Of a DNA stretch of 50,450 nt, positions 17,650 through 34,132 are shown one piece after another. This DNA is from Lactiplantibacillus nangangensis (GTDB taxonomy: Bacteria > Bacillota > Bacilli > Lactobacillales > Lactobacillaceae): the NCBI RefSeq assembly GCF_005405065.1, contig NZ_BJDI01000019.1:1-50450 (forward strand). Direction: 5' to 3'. The notes below the pieces were generated by a model. It was not told the origin of the DNA, ran no database searches, and worked only from the letters and a program-made list of their open reading frames with translations. The stretch's first letter is position 1; each line of letters starts with the position of its first letter. Position numbers and translations under genes: made by a program.

Positions 17650-17735
17650 TTCATAGCAACTGGGGTGCCATTCGGCTGAGATAATACCCATTGAACCTGA
17701 TCTGGATAATGCCAGCGTAAGGGAGCAATGCTTAT
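17650..17735 (+). promoter_or_regulatory. TPP riboswitch (THI element)
   Basis: The conserved cores GGGGTGCC (17662-17669), CTGAGAT (17676-17682), GAACCTGATCTGGATAATGC (17693-17712) and the AGCGTAAGGGA block (17714-17724) appear in the right order. It binds thiamine pyrophosphate. With the terminator at 17764-17804 it should shut off ykoEDC when thiamine is plentiful. Confidence 0.95.
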
Positions 17736-17763
17736 TTGGGGAACCATCAATACGGACTTTAGC

Positions 17764-28281: not shown

Positions 28282-29460
28282 ATGGCACTAATTTTGGCGG
28301 TGATGATGATGACGATTCGAACACAAAAGGTAAGGCTTTACCCCAACCATCATTTGGCAAAGGTGCTTGATAACCTCTGTGATTATCGGAGGTATTGCTG
28401 GAATGAGGGATTAGCAACCTGGAACGACATGTATGATTTATACACACTTGATTCAAATAATCCCCGTCCTAATACCTATTCAATTCGGAATGAATTAGTC
28501 GCGAATAAAGCTGATTGGCAGTATACATTATCAGCACGTACCTTACAATTAGCTGTGGCTGATTTAGGAAAAGCTTGGCAGAACTTCTTCGATAAATCAC
28601 AACCTGATTGGGGTAAACCAACATTCAAGTCAAAAAACGCCGCGCGGCAAGGATTTAAAACCGACCGGGCTAAAATCATTGCTGGAAAACTTCGGTTGGA
28701 TAAACCACGTGGGACTAAAGGTTGTTATAACATTATGCTAAGCAAACATGCGGATTTATCAGGTGTTCTGAAAGTGGTTAGTATTTATCGTGAAAATGGC
28801 AAATACTGGGCTAGTTTTTCTCTAGAAGTTGAACTTGATGCCAAACCGCGAACAGGTAACAATTCAGCTGTTGACGTGAATGTTGGTCATCTAACCTATA
28901 CTGCCGGTATTGTTAATACCTTACCAAAACGATTACGTCAGTTATATCAACGGATCAAGTTTTACCAAAAGCAGTTAGCTCATAAATGCGTCATGAATGG
29001 TAATAAAGCAACCAAGAGTGGTCGTTACGTTGCAATGAGAGCCAAATTACAACGTGATTATCGCAAAGTTGCTAATGTCCAACATGACATCATGCAAAAG
29101 TTTACAACAAAGCTAGTCAACGATTATGATACAATCGTGATTGAAAATTTGGCTGTCAAAGCGATGCAGATGAGCCACGTTGCTTCTAAAGGCTTACAAC
29201 GGTCAATGTTTGGTTATTTTCGACAGATATTAACTTATAAATGTGACTGGTATGGCAAAAAGCTGATACTGGCGGATCGACAATATCCTTCGACTCAGCG
29301 CTGTTCAAAGTGTGGATATACTAAATCAGGGAACGATAAAATCACGCTCCAAGGAAATTCGACACATCAAACTAAGCATAGTGAATATGTTTGTTATAGT
29401 TGTGGTGCAATACTTGATCGTGATGAAAATGCGGTTGCTAATTTACTGGCCTTAATCTAA
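28282..29460 (+). CDS. tnpB: TnpB RNA-guided endonuclease, IS605 family
   Basis: RNA-guided DNA nuclease, ancestor-like relative of Cas12. RuvC residues are all present: Asp198 in AVDVNVG, Glu288 in VIENLAV, Asp379/381 in LDRDENA. A zinc ribbon uses Cys341, Cys344, Cys371 and Cys374. The N-terminal OrfB domain (RTQKVRLYPN, YCWNEGL) is intact. The first RuvC motif reads DVNVG where DLG is usual, so activity should be tested rather than assumed. The start is uncertain: ATG 28282 gives 392 aa, while an ATG run at 28303-28311 after GGCGGTG gives about 383 aa. The frame is uninterrupted. Confidence 0.92.
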   Translation: MALILAVMMMTIRTQKVRLYPNHHLAKVLDNLCDYRRYCWNEGLATWNDMYDLYTLDSNNPRPNTYSIRNELVANKADWQYTLSARTLQLAVADLGKAWQNFFDKSQPDWGKPTFKSKNAARQGFKTDRAKIIAGKLRLDKPRGTKGCYNIMLSKHADLSGVLKVVSIYRENGKYWASFSLEVELDAKPRTGNNSAVDVNVGHLTYTAGIVNTLPKRLRQLYQRIKFYQKQLAHKCVMNGNKATKSGRYVAMRAKLQRDYRKVANVQHDIMQKFTTKLVNDYDTIVIENLAVKAMQMSHVASKGLQRSMFGYFRQILTYKCDWYGKKLILADRQYPSTQRCSKCGYTKSGNDKITLQGNSTHQTKHSEYVCYSCGAILDRDENAVANLLALI

Positions 29461-29560
29461 AAAATAATAACTTAACGGGGCTGGCTAAGTCCTTAAACTG
29501 TCATAGTTGGTCAATGTGATTACTCCCCAGTGGAATATCGGAATACCGGCGTAATAACGG
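29380..29560 (+). ncRNA. Possible TnpB guide (omega) RNA
   Basis: In IS605 elements the guide RNA spans the 3' end of tnpB and the right end. Here the 3' coding end is followed by GGGG (29477-29480) able to pair with CCCC (29524-29527), and by GGAATA direct repeats near 29532-29546. The placement is by analogy with the family; the limits and the guide segment are not determined. Confidence 0.3.
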
Positions 29561-31138: not shown

Positions 31139-31167
31139 TTGACAAAAGTTTACCAACTTGGTAAATT
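31139..31167 (+). promoter_or_regulatory. Serine operon promoter with palindromic operator
   Basis: Perfect -35 TTGACA (31139-31144), 17-bp spacer, -10 TAAATT (31162-31167). A perfect 17-bp palindrome TTTACCAA-C-TTGGTAAA (31149-31165) fills the spacer and enters the -10, so a repressor bound there would block transcription. The regulator is not in the window as far as I can tell. Confidence 0.75.
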
Positions 31168-31197
31168 TAAGGCAATGAAATTTTGGGAGTGGTCAGT

Positions 31198-31266
31198 ATG
31201 TTTATCAATCGTAATGCTAACTTAATCGTCTCCTCCTGGTCAACACAAACAGCTGTGTCGGCCTAA
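31198..31266 (+). CDS. Serine-rich leader peptide of the serCA operon, 22 aa
   Basis: The start is ATG with GGGAG about 8 nt upstream. The 22-codon frame has Ser at positions 12, 13, 15 and 21 (SSWS run, codons TCC TCC TGG TCA, later TCG). This is a strong enrichment just where a regulatory ribosome would stall. The end of the frame overlaps the first arm of a hairpin (31255-31261). The downstream terminator and alternative stems match a classical amino-acid attenuation leader. It is the first gene of the transcript. Translation is inferred, not proven. Confidence 0.75.
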   Translation: MFINRNANLIVSSWSTQTAVSA

Positions 31267-31383
31267 TTTCGTTTGACTTAAAACGGCCCGACACGGATGT
31301 TACCTAACATTCGATGACGAGGGCCGCACCATTACTGAAATCAACAGTCCTCGTGGTCAATGATGACCATTGGGACTTTTTTT
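31255..31383 (+). promoter_or_regulatory. Serine attenuator: competing stems and terminator
   Basis: Segment 1 GTGTCGG (31255-31261) pairs with segment 2 CCGACAC (31288-31294). Segment 2's CGGCCC (31284-31289) can instead pair with segment 3 GGGCCG (31321-31326). Segment 3's ACGAGG (31317-31322) can pair with segment 4 CCTCGT (31349-31354). Segment 4 overlaps the terminator AGTCC..GGTCA / TGACC..GGACT (31346-31377), followed by T7. Ribosome stalling at Ser codons 12-15 leaves 1:2 free to form, allowing 3:4 and read-through. A ribosome at the stop codon hides segment 1, giving 2:3 and termination. Confidence 0.7.
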
Positions 31384-31428: not shown

Positions 31429-32532
31429 ATGTCAACGTATAACTTTTCCGCTGGCCCAGCAGTCATGCCAAAACCAGTTATTGCCCAAATTCAGGCTGAA
31501 TTACCGTCATTTCAAGGCTCCGAAATGAGTATCATGGAGATCTCCCATCGCTCTCAGCTATTTGACCAGGTGATTAACGAGGCCGAAGCTGACCTGCGTG
31601 ACCTGATGCAGATTCCCGACAACTATCGCGTGCTCTTTTTCCAAGGCGGCGGCACCTTACAATTCACTGCCGCACCTTTGAATCTCGCCACCAAGCACCA
31701 TCACATTGGCTTACTAGATAGTGGTCACTGGGCTAGCCGGGCCGCCGAAGAAGCCCGACGCGTCAACACTCAAGTTGATATTCTGGGCACCGCGGCACCG
31801 ACACATTTTACGACGCTCCCACGCTTGAACAAACCGGTCGATCAAACGCTGGATTACGTCCACATCACAACGAATAACACGATTGAAGGAACTGCGTATA
31901 CGGCCTTACCTGAAACTGGTCAAGTTCCGCTAGTCGCTGACATGTCCTCCAACTTTTTAGGCCAAGTCTACAACGTCAATGATTTTGGCATGATCTTTGC
32001 GGGTGCGCAAAAGAACTTAGGTCCGGCCGGATTAACGATCGTCATTGTCCGCGACGACTTGATCGGACACGCTAAGCAGTTACCAAGCATGCTCGATTAT
32101 CAACTATTTGCCGACAAACGGTCAATGTTCAATACGCCACCCGTCTTCGCGATTTACGCGGCCGGACTGGTCCTGAAATGGCTCAAAGCGCAAGGTGGGC
32201 TCAACGTCATCGAACAGCGTAACCGCGTGAAAGCAAACTTACTCTATGACTTTTTGGACCAATCGACCTTATTCAATTGCCAAGTCAAGCCAGCCGACCG
32301 GTCACTGATGAACGTCCCGTTTGTCACTGGTAACCCTGACCTAGACGCACAAGTGATTGCCGGTGCAACCAAACACGGACTATTGAACTTAAAAGGTCAC
32401 CGTTTAGTCGGCGGTATGCGGGCAAGCCTATATAACGCCATGCCACTCGCTGGTGTTCAGGCCCTCGTCGATTATCTCGCTGCTTTCGAAGCTGACCATG
32501 CTAAAGGAGAATTCGAAAATGTATCAAATTAA
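31429..32532 (+). CDS. serC: Phosphoserine aminotransferase
   Basis: PLP enzyme that converts 3-phosphohydroxypyruvate and glutamate to phosphoserine, step two of serine synthesis. The N-terminus MSTYNFSAGPAVMP is the family start, and the PLP lysine is Lys195 in GAQKNLGPAG. I use the ATG at 31429 (367 aa), with GTGAGG about 8 nt upstream; the frame reaching 31360 would begin inside the terminator. serA overlaps its last 14 bp. Expression is probably controlled by the serine attenuator and the operator upstream. No serB is in the window. Confidence 0.96.
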   Translation: MSTYNFSAGPAVMPKPVIAQIQAELPSFQGSEMSIMEISHRSQLFDQVINEAEADLRDLMQIPDNYRVLFFQGGGTLQFTAAPLNLATKHHHIGLLDSGHWASRAAEEARRVNTQVDILGTAAPTHFTTLPRLNKPVDQTLDYVHITTNNTIEGTAYTALPETGQVPLVADMSSNFLGQVYNVNDFGMIFAGAQKNLGPAGLTIVIVRDDLIGHAKQLPSMLDYQLFADKRSMFNTPPVFAIYAAGLVLKWLKAQGGLNVIEQRNRVKANLLYDFLDQSTLFNCQVKPADRSLMNVPFVTGNPDLDAQVIAGATKHGLLNLKGHRLVGGMRASLYNAMPLAGVQALVDYLAAFEADHAKGEFENVSN

Positions 32533-33688
32533 AACTTATAACGCAATTGCCCAAGCTGGGCTTGCAACTTTCACTAACAACTATGCTTTAAATCAATCGG
32601 ACCAACCAGACGCTTACTTGATTCGGTCGGTCGACTTACATCATCAGACTTTTCCAAAGTCCCTCAAAGTGATTGCCCGTGCCGGTGCCGGCGTCAATAA
32701 TATTCCCCTAGACGTCGCCACCGCGAACGGGACGGCTGTTTTCAATACGCCTGGGAGTAATGCCAACGCCGTCAAAGAACTCGTGATCGCCTTACTCGTC
32801 ATCGCGTCCCGCAATTTAATGGCGGCTGCTGACTACTCCGCTGAACATACCGAAGCCGACGTTTCACAACGGACAGAACACGATAAGACTAAGTTTAATG
32901 GGTCCGAACTGCTCGGCAAAACTTTGGCCGTCGTCGGTTTAGGCCACGTAGGTTCACTCGTGGCCAATGCTGCACTCAGTCTGGGCATGCACGTTATCGG
33001 CTACGATCCTTACTTGTCAGCAGATGCCGCCTGGAATATTTCTAAACAAGTTCAACGCGCCGCAACTATGGAAATAGCTGTTAAAAATGCCGATTATGTC
33101 ACCGTCCACGTCCCTAAAAATGACGATACGCTAAACCTGATCAGTGCCACAGACCTCGCGGCAATGCCAACTGGCGTCCAATTATTTAATTACTCGCGCG
33201 GCGGCATCGTCGATAACGGCGCTGTCTTGGACGCACTCGCGACTGGGCGCGTGGCCCATTACTATACCGACTTTGGTGAACCGCGGCTAGCCAACCAAGC
33301 AGCCGTCACAGTAACCCCACATATTGGTGGCTCAACGATCGAAGCCGAAGTGAACGGTGCGACCCAAGCAGCACGGACAATCATGACTTATTTGGAGACT
33401 GGTAACGTGCAATACGCCATCAATTTACCCGCTTTGAACGTTCCCTTTAACGCCGCTTACCGTTTCACCGTTATTCACCAAAACGTGCCTAATATGGTCA
33501 GCCAAATCACGTCAAAATTAGCGGATGCGGGTTTGAACATTGCCACCATGGCAAACGCCGCGAAACAACAGACCGCGTACACGATTATCGACGTGGACGA
33601 CTTGGACCACGAAAGTAGCCAACAACTCATTGACGCGCTAAATAAAATTCCAGCAGTCTATCGCGTTCGACTGTTAATCCATCAATAA
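32519..33688 (+). CDS. serA: D-3-phosphoglycerate dehydrogenase with ACT domain
   Basis: NAD-dependent first enzyme of serine synthesis, making 3-phosphohydroxypyruvate. Residues about 45-80 form the catalytic domain start; the NAD motif VVGLGHVG spans 138-145. The catalytic Arg is seen in FNYSRGG and the His in TPHIGGST. A C-terminal ACT domain (about 318-389, beginning FTVIHQNVPNMV) probably senses serine for feedback inhibition. The ATG at 32519 has GGAG about 9 nt upstream, and overlaps serC by 14 bp, pointing to translational coupling. The length of 389 aa fits the short ACT-bearing form. Confidence 0.95.
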   Translation: MYQIKTYNAIAQAGLATFTNNYALNQSDQPDAYLIRSVDLHHQTFPKSLKVIARAGAGVNNIPLDVATANGTAVFNTPGSNANAVKELVIALLVIASRNLMAAADYSAEHTEADVSQRTEHDKTKFNGSELLGKTLAVVGLGHVGSLVANAALSLGMHVIGYDPYLSADAAWNISKQVQRAATMEIAVKNADYVTVHVPKNDDTLNLISATDLAAMPTGVQLFNYSRGGIVDNGAVLDALATGRVAHYYTDFGEPRLANQAAVTVTPHIGGSTIEAEVNGATQAARTIMTYLETGNVQYAINLPALNVPFNAAYRFTVIHQNVPNMVSQITSKLADAGLNIATMANAAKQQTAYTIIDVDDLDHESSQQLIDALNKIPAVYRVRLLIHQ

Positions 33689-33697
33689 GGAAATCGT

Positions 33698-34132
33698 ATG
33701 CAAATCGAAACGCTAAAACAGCCGACTGAAACCCAGCTTGACCAATTGATGACCATTTGGCTAGCTGGCAATTTGACCGCCCATGCCTTTGTCAAAGCAG
33801 ACTATTGGCGCAAACAACTACCAGCCGTTCGTGCGGCCCTACCGACAGCTCGTTTGACGATTGCCACTGAGGCCAACCAAATCATCGGGTTTATCGGCCT
33901 CCAAGGCAACTATATTGCTGGCATCTTTGTCGCCGCCACCGCCCAAAAAAACGGTGTTGGAACGGCATTATTAGCCACAGCTAAGACGCAACAGCCTAAA
34001 TTACAATTAGACGTCTACGTTGCTAATCGCGTCGCCGTCGCTTTTTATCATCACAGTGATTTTCAAGTCCACCGCCAAACAATCGATAAGGCGACACACC
34101 AACCTGAATATCAGATGCGCTGGCATCGTTAA
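33698..34132 (+). CDS. GNAT-family N-acetyltransferase
   Basis: 144-aa acetyl-CoA-dependent acetyltransferase. The acetyl-CoA-binding region is recognisable as IAGIFVAATAQKNGVGTALLATA (motif A, Q/R-x-x-G-x-G/A form). The C-terminal LDVYVANRVAVAFYHHSDFQVHRQ has the usual beta5-alpha4 pattern with the Tyr. The substrate is unknown. It starts 9 bp after serA with AAGGAA upstream, so it belongs to the serine transcript. A role in serine or related metabolism is possible but not shown. The operon terminator follows at 34148-34200. Confidence 0.88.
   Translation: MQIETLKQPTETQLDQLMTIWLAGNLTAHAFVKADYWRKQLPAVRAALPTARLTIATEANQIIGFIGLQGNYIAGIFVAATAQKNGVGTALLATAKTQQPKLQLDVYVANRVAVAFYHHSDFQVHRQTIDKATHQPEYQMRWHR

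Follow-up and report, generated by a model that had tools for sequence, protein, structure and literature searches.

In enterobacteria, the leader-peptide attenuators of trp, his, leu and thr form the classic class of switches in which a translated leader controls amino acid genes. The usual solution for such genes in Firmicutes is the T-box. Leaders lacking any ORF can switch by alternative RNA structures, and the serC RNA motif RF00517 has its home in alphaproteobacteria. Serine has two unrelated sets of codons. A catalogue of RNA regulons published in 2013 names Rfam attenuators of four amino acids (His, Leu, Thr and Trp) and, from outside Rfam, those of Ile/Val and Phe; serine is absent from the amino acid attenuators in the available text of this catalogue, where the ligand of RF00517 is listed as unknown (PMC3766115). 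Open-access literature on serine leaders and attenuation, a scope outside which most subscription papers fall, gave no serine leader peptide among the matches listed, and the exact phrase "serine leader peptide" was unmatched. The words serC and serA are absent from the available main text of a T-box survey covering L. plantarum (PMC2494555).

The window considered here is the whole stretch of 50,450 nucleotides that was analysed, from Lactiplantibacillus nangangensis. Its serC-serA genes are very probably controlled by ribosome-mediated transcription attenuation that reads the serine supply via a leader peptide. The following elements were found.

31139-31167, plus strand: predicted promoter-like -35/-10 element, TTGACA, 17 nt, TAAATT, with TG ahead of the second hexamer (consensus scan, sequence match 10/12)
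31185-31189, plus strand: ribosome-binding site GGGAG of the leader peptide (by sequence; a GGAG-like element is present in relatives too)
31198-31266, plus strand: candidate leader peptide MFINRNANLIVSSWSTQTAVSA, 22 codons and a stop (reading frame; SSWST core in relatives)
31231-31242, plus strand: candidate control codons Ser12 UCC, Ser13 UCC, (Trp14), Ser15 UCA
31238-31247, plus strand: segment 0, pairs with segment 1 in hairpin 0:1 (minimum free energy fold; the pair changes across the family)
31253-31263, plus strand: segment 1, partner of 0 (OFF) or 2 (ON)
31285-31300, plus strand: segment 2, partner of 1 (ON) or 3 (OFF)
31307-31324, plus strand: segment 3, partner of 2 (OFF) or 4 (ON, antiterminator)
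31347-31359, plus strand: segment 4, the 5' arm of the terminator, partner of 3 (ON) or 5 (OFF)
31365-31383, plus strand: segment 5 (31365-31376) and the T7 run (31377-31383), the terminator's 3' arm and tail
31429-32532, plus strand: serC, phosphoserine transaminase (TIGR01364, 470 bits, cut-off 443.6)
32519-33688, plus strand: serA-like 2-hydroxyacid dehydrogenase (best NCBIfam model PGDH, 249 bits, below the cut-off of 454; Pfam 2-Hacid_dh domains above theirs)
33698-34132: GNAT gene, downstream of the serA-like gene

The preliminary description, made from the sequence alone, had placed a 22-codon frame with a good ribosome site and serines at positions 12, 13, 15 and 21 in front of serC-serA. 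The frame and its translation agree with this, and GGGAG ends 8 nt before the ATG. The naming of the downstream genes holds for SerC, which scores above the curated cut-off, and less firmly for the SerA-like dehydrogenase, for which the PGDH model stays below its own; the two genes overlap by 14 nt. The promoter spacer contains a perfect palindrome, TTTACCAACTTGGTAAA (31149-31165), that extends into the -10 hexamer. Considered as an operator, it is kept only in the closest relatives and lost in others, so it may be a lineage-specific one. Elsewhere the window contains a TPP riboswitch (17651-17743) and a Transposase-1 RNA (29498-29555), the latter just past a transposase-like ORF (28282-29460, named from reading).

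The leader may fold into two incompatible sets of helices, OFF (0:1, 2:3 and 4:5, the terminator) and ON (1:2 and 3:4, the antiterminator). Three competing stems had been described before and were found close to the positions given then: 1:2 (31253-31263 with 31285-31296), 2:3 (31286-31300 with 31307-31324) and 3:4 (about 31317-31324 with 31347-31354). The terminator was likewise recovered near its earlier position, with 31347-31358 pairing with 31365-31376 ahead of the T7 run. What the earlier description had missed is an additional hairpin, 0:1, formed in the minimum free energy fold by GGTCAACACA (31238-31247) and TGTGTCGGCC (31254-31263) with one mismatch and spanning codons 14-17 and 20-22 of the leader frame. 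The facing bases of this mismatch, 31242 and 31259, are A-C (8), T-T (10) or T-C (2) in the 20 leaders of the genus, never a pair, and form a T-A pair in most other genera; the retained mismatch may weaken hairpin 0:1. The region 31175-31383 is more stable than all 200 of 200 dinucleotide shuffles (folding, z -3.47). A simple terminator scan reported 0 terminators.

serC was found in 20 of the 21 genomes of the genus that were searched. All 20 have a frame with the SSWST core upstream of serC, and TCCTCCTGGTC is invariant in all these leaders; the genome lacking serC (G007) has no leader match either. Codons 12, 13 and 15 encode Ser in 20/20. Codon 21 is TCG (Ser) in ten and TTG (Leu) in ten, and Ser21 was thus rejected as a control codon, so that of the four serines pointed out initially only the first three stand.

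Outside the genus the leader was followed by two methods. A covariance model built from the genus leaders in the OFF structure, R1, matches in 134 of 397 Lactobacillaceae genomes (E<=0.1), the weak end of this list being unreliable, with T-boxes among the matches. serC is present in 173 of the 397 genomes. The 450 nt 5' of serC were taken from 120 genomes outside the genus, which together with the genus makes 140 of 173 examined. A small ORF with a serine cluster and a ribosome site was found in 83 of these 120 regions, compared with 3/120 on the reverse strand and 15/1200 dinucleotide shuffles; the peptide patterns of this test were composed after inspection of the leader peptides and applied unchanged to the controls. 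Two passes in genus g7 and two in genus g17 are weak because R1 gives no match there. Two loci that failed the test do have the leader: in L134 one Ser is replaced by Phe (R1 E 7.4e-13), and L083 has its leader 502 nt ahead of serC, as read in an apparent copy, L220. With these and the genus, the leader was found at 105 of the 140 serC loci. Compared to their relatives, L220 has about 330 extra bases between the attenuator and serC, and L003 more than 500 between the leader and serC; in both, an insertion thus separates the switch from the gene.

The 35 serC loci without the leader belong to the genera g31 (8/8), g23 (7/8), g3 (6/6), g34 (5/5), g2 (3/3) and g17 (3/5), with one each in g6, g37 and g39. 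Rfam models gave no cis-regulatory match in 20 serC upstream regions, 18 of them failing the small-ORF test; six of the 20 contain a tRNA gene, identified as tRNA-Leu by ARAGORN. A tRNA-Leu(CAG) gene lies at most 450 nt upstream of serC in 10/10 tested loci (L140, L141, L142, L187-L193; g2, g7, g17, g39), mostly ones without a clear serine leader. Immediately ahead of serC in L170 (g34), a stretch of about 90 nt is repeated in tandem some three times, each copy with an end resembling a ribosome site (by eye).

A degenerate pattern of the Ser codons and hairpin 0:1, which does not fit the window's own genus, was run on genomes of 84,980 species and gave 34 matches. Of these, 31 are in Lactobacillaceae (Companilactobacillus, Lentilactobacillus, Secundilactobacillus, Lactobacillus sp. 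Sy-1 and one MAG), and serC starts 151-502 nt downstream in 31/31. The other three come from MAGs of Proteobacteria, Rhodobiaceae and Prevotella; none has serC within the stretch, and they probably arose by chance. Among 395 genomes of the order, R1 matched 20 at E<=0.001, 18 of them from the same family; the two matches in another family (L259, L263) have no serC in the locus and were rejected. No plasmid record resembled the serC region.

Fifteen R1 matches away from known serC loci were inspected. L206 turned out to be a serC locus after all, L211-L215 contain T-box-like sequence (by eye), and in five others nothing was recognised. Matches L203-L205 are aromatic leaders ahead of an aminotransferase, and these three also have a terminator hairpin. 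In 15 of 30 loci, a class I/II aminotransferase is preceded by a small ORF with at least five aromatic residues in eight; these loci include one in the window's own genome (L276, G000:C11, upstream of 63916; MSLPLNQPKRSTSFYFWYFR) and L267, L268, L270-L275, L277, L279, L282, L284, L288 and L293 (...YFYFWFF...). By their sequence they look like candidate aromatic leader-peptide attenuators; the open-access literature gave no aromatic leader in lactobacilli among the matches listed. In the remaining match, L208 (377-604), a terminator hairpin and a small ORF whose peptide has a single Trp (MQKLSAMTNNIRWQSLH, by eye) lie ahead of trpX, which encodes the substrate-binding protein of a tryptophan ABC transporter. 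Together with the serine leader, the aromatic and trpX leaders suggest that lactobacilli possess an entire set of such attenuators in addition to T-boxes.

For the comparison of codons and helices, R1 was applied to 100 loci, all 20 from the genus plus 80 from the 120 outside it; those 88 that match at E<=1.2e-5 form an alignment, A4, covering ten genera. Each of the three control positions is Ser in 87 of the 88 leaders, a count to be read with the choice of rows in mind, since R1 includes the Ser-codon columns and selection thus favours rows retaining Ser codons. The two central serines are encoded by UCC (77 and 79), UCU (8 and 6) and UCA (2 and 2), never by AGC or AGU. Of the 12 loci excluded from A4, ten were inspected by eye and have UCN at the central positions too. 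The position preceding the central codons has AGY in 14 rows of A4. In the 27 ORFs of the window, UCC accounts for 9.5% of Ser codons and AGY for 45%. A sensor of UCN-reading seryl-tRNA is the best reading of these codons. In serine-starved B. subtilis, according to the available part of the report, ribosome density increases at UCN and not at AGY codons (PMC3862929).

The residues ahead of the Ser codons have no shared sequence between genera and vary in length. Position 14 is Trp in 65 of the 88 leaders, Leu in 9, Lys in 8, Arg in 5 and Gly in 1; sensing of Trp was therefore ruled out, this residue being replaced in 23/88. Sensing of Thr was ruled out as well, as position 16 is Ser or Ala in 4/88 and gapped in 3. 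As Trp14 can be replaced and conservation does not extend to Ser21, the signal seems to be carried by the serine codons rather than by a peptide motif. This bears on the possibility that the nascent SSWST peptide, when it binds a metabolite, is what brings the ribosome to a halt, so that the serine codons matter only via the peptide. The invariance of SSWST in the genus, and the predominance of Trp between the serines in the 88 aligned leaders, would agree with such an arrest. However, the substitutions of Trp listed above and the wide differences between genera in the residues preceding the serines do not, and a synonymous constraint, UCN only at two central positions, would be superfluous for a mechanism acting through the peptide alone. 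We consider an arrest of this kind improbable.

Conservation of the helices was assessed on A4, which was fitted to the OFF structure, so that the following figures lean towards it: 90.4% of cells are paired, compared with 37-44% when the structure is displaced by 1 to 3 columns; changes on both sides occur in 25 of 30 pairs, where shuffled alignments average 20.5 and 1 of 500 attains the native number; and the covariation is 0.434 versus 0.175 in shuffled alignments. An energy-based swap test was applied to 81 of the 88 rows, seven with a short segment 2 being removed. In each of the five helices, native partners bind better than those from other rows (0 of 5000 permutations in every case), and this holds also for 1:2 and 3:4, to neither of which A4 was fitted. 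Thus the antiterminator 3:4 and the intrinsic terminator 4:5, which are mutually exclusive, both co-vary between species. With swaps restricted to rows of the same genus in the family set, the native value was never reached for 1:2, 2:3, 3:4 and 4:5 (0/5000 each); it was reached in 4684 of 5000 for 0:1, which hardly varies inside genera. In the 20 rows of the window's genus, 2:3, 3:4 and 4:5 pass (0, 1 and 9 of 5000), 1:2 is not significant (850/5000) and 0:1 is worse than swapped (5000/5000); this genus-only test is too shallow for the latter two helices. Between genera hairpin 0:1 changes on both sides, for instance from GGUCUAC/GUAGGCC to GGUCUUC/GAAGGCC in L151 and L162, and is GGUCCAC/GUGGGCC in L118 (by eye). 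Pairing of the Ser codons with segment 3 was considered as an extra arm of the switch and dropped, as segment 3 is altered in L012 and the codons are not.

Among the checks proposed in the preliminary description were conservation of the Ser codons in relatives and compensatory changes in the stems. The codons at positions 12, 13 and 15 are retained throughout the genus and in nearly all aligned leaders of the family, the stems are kept, and all five helices co-vary between species; both results support its reading of this region as a serine leader-peptide attenuator.

The strongly supported RNA structure would also be expected of a riboswitch or a protein-bound RNA switch in which the small ORF is incidental. 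This we regard as equally improbable to the peptide arrest, since the frame, the ribosome site and the in-frame UCN codons are kept while the upstream sequence and its length vary, no sequence 5' of the Ser codons is common to the leaders of different genera, and the leader has no Rfam match. A still smaller probability goes to a role in trans, in which the leader peptide, or else the short RNA left by termination, would act as a microprotein or small RNA and attenuation would be secondary: in the available text such roles are reported for trp leader peptides (PMC7298713), yet outside the serine core the present peptide shows poor conservation from genus to genus, and the codons at its C-terminus track the pairing of the hairpin. 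A serine T-box, such as the one reported, in the part of the paper available, to control serA of Paenibacillus polymyxa (PMC8002221), has a negligible probability here, as Rfam covariance models, including those of the T-box and RF00517, gave no match to the serine leader, with the window searched at gathering thresholds and the leader at E up to 10.

Ribosome-mediated attenuation therefore remains the preferred explanation. The conserved frame, the UCN serine codons, the five helices in two incompatible sets, the terminator and the genes are seen in the sequence itself. From these elements we infer the stalling of the ribosome, the direction of the response and its serine specificity. When charged tRNA-Ser is ample, the ribosome would pass Ser12, Ser13 and Ser15, reach the stop codon and cover segment 1; segment 2 would then pair with 3, leaving 4 free for 5, and transcription would end at the T7 run. 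When charged tRNA-Ser is scarce, the ribosome would wait on the adjacent UCC codons, covering segment 0, and thus hairpin 0:1 could not form. Segment 1 would pair with 2 and 3 with 4, the terminator would be pre-empted, and serC-serA would be transcribed. Without translation of the leader, hairpin 0:1 may be the first to form, which would favour termination; of all the steps this is the least certain.

This logic was compared with equilibrium folding of the RNA from codon 11 to just past segment 4 in 81 rows with the ribosome footprint masked. The mean number of 3:4 pairs is 10.1 when the Ser codons are masked, 5.1 when the stop-codon region is masked and 8.0 without a ribosome. The stalled state exceeds the stop state by more than one 3:4 pair in 56 of the 81 rows, the two are within one pair in 25, and the reverse occurs in none; helix 3:4 is retained in the stop state in L012, L014 and L020 of the genus. 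The stalled state exceeds the state without a ribosome in 32/81. The window's own RNA without a ribosome folds into the ON structure, with 12.1 pairs in 3:4 and 0.5 in 0:1. Since the untranslated RNA is often ON at equilibrium, a default-off state would depend on 0:1 forming first during transcription.

In its predicted composition, that is, a leader ORF, a conserved run of Ser codons and a mutually exclusive antiterminator and terminator, the serC leader belongs to the class of trp-type attenuators. It shares with the enterobacterial trp, his, leu and thr attenuators a short leader, here predicted to be translated, a series of codons specifying the amino acid that is made, overlapping alternative hairpins, an intrinsic terminator and biosynthetic genes downstream. 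It differs from them in the amino acid, serine, and in having six segments and five alternating helices against the four segments of trp, and no sequence relation was seen. We lean towards the view that serine is a new amino acid specificity for leader-peptide attenuation, implemented as a five-helix relay that is widespread in Lactobacillaceae and codon-tuned to the UCN-reading class of tRNA-Ser. Such a switch would be testable with reporters in a food-grade organism and provides an annotation rule for many lactobacillus genomes.

With RF00517 this leader shares only the name of serC, and the window does not match that motif. The closest counterparts within Firmicutes, so far as the available texts describe them, are the Leu attenuator in the ilv-leu operon of S. 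aureus (PMC5794164) and the predicted His leader of bacilli (PMC2965389), where leader-peptide attenuation takes the place of a T-box, as proposed for serC; both differ from the serC leader in the amino acid and the genes, and the former has genetic and reporter support, the serC leader support from sequence comparison. The sinR sensor of B. subtilis (PMC3862929) is similar in that slow UCN codons sense the depletion of serine, but, in the portion of that paper available, it acts inside a coding gene and involves neither a leader peptide nor a terminator. A leader with only UCN at its key positions fits both the theory of selective tRNA charging in attenuators, in the part available (PMC1183508), and the profiling of serine-starved B. 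subtilis, and, as serine has two codon sets, may be regarded as a natural experiment on such charging. Finally, the serA T-box of P. polymyxa serves the same pathway with the same expected logic, serine starvation leading to more read-through of the terminator. However, it binds uncharged tRNA directly and does not need translation, whereas no T-box is detectable in the serC leader. Thus, as far as the available text on this relative goes, lactobacilli would use a switch read by the ribosome where another Firmicute uses a T-box for the same pathway.
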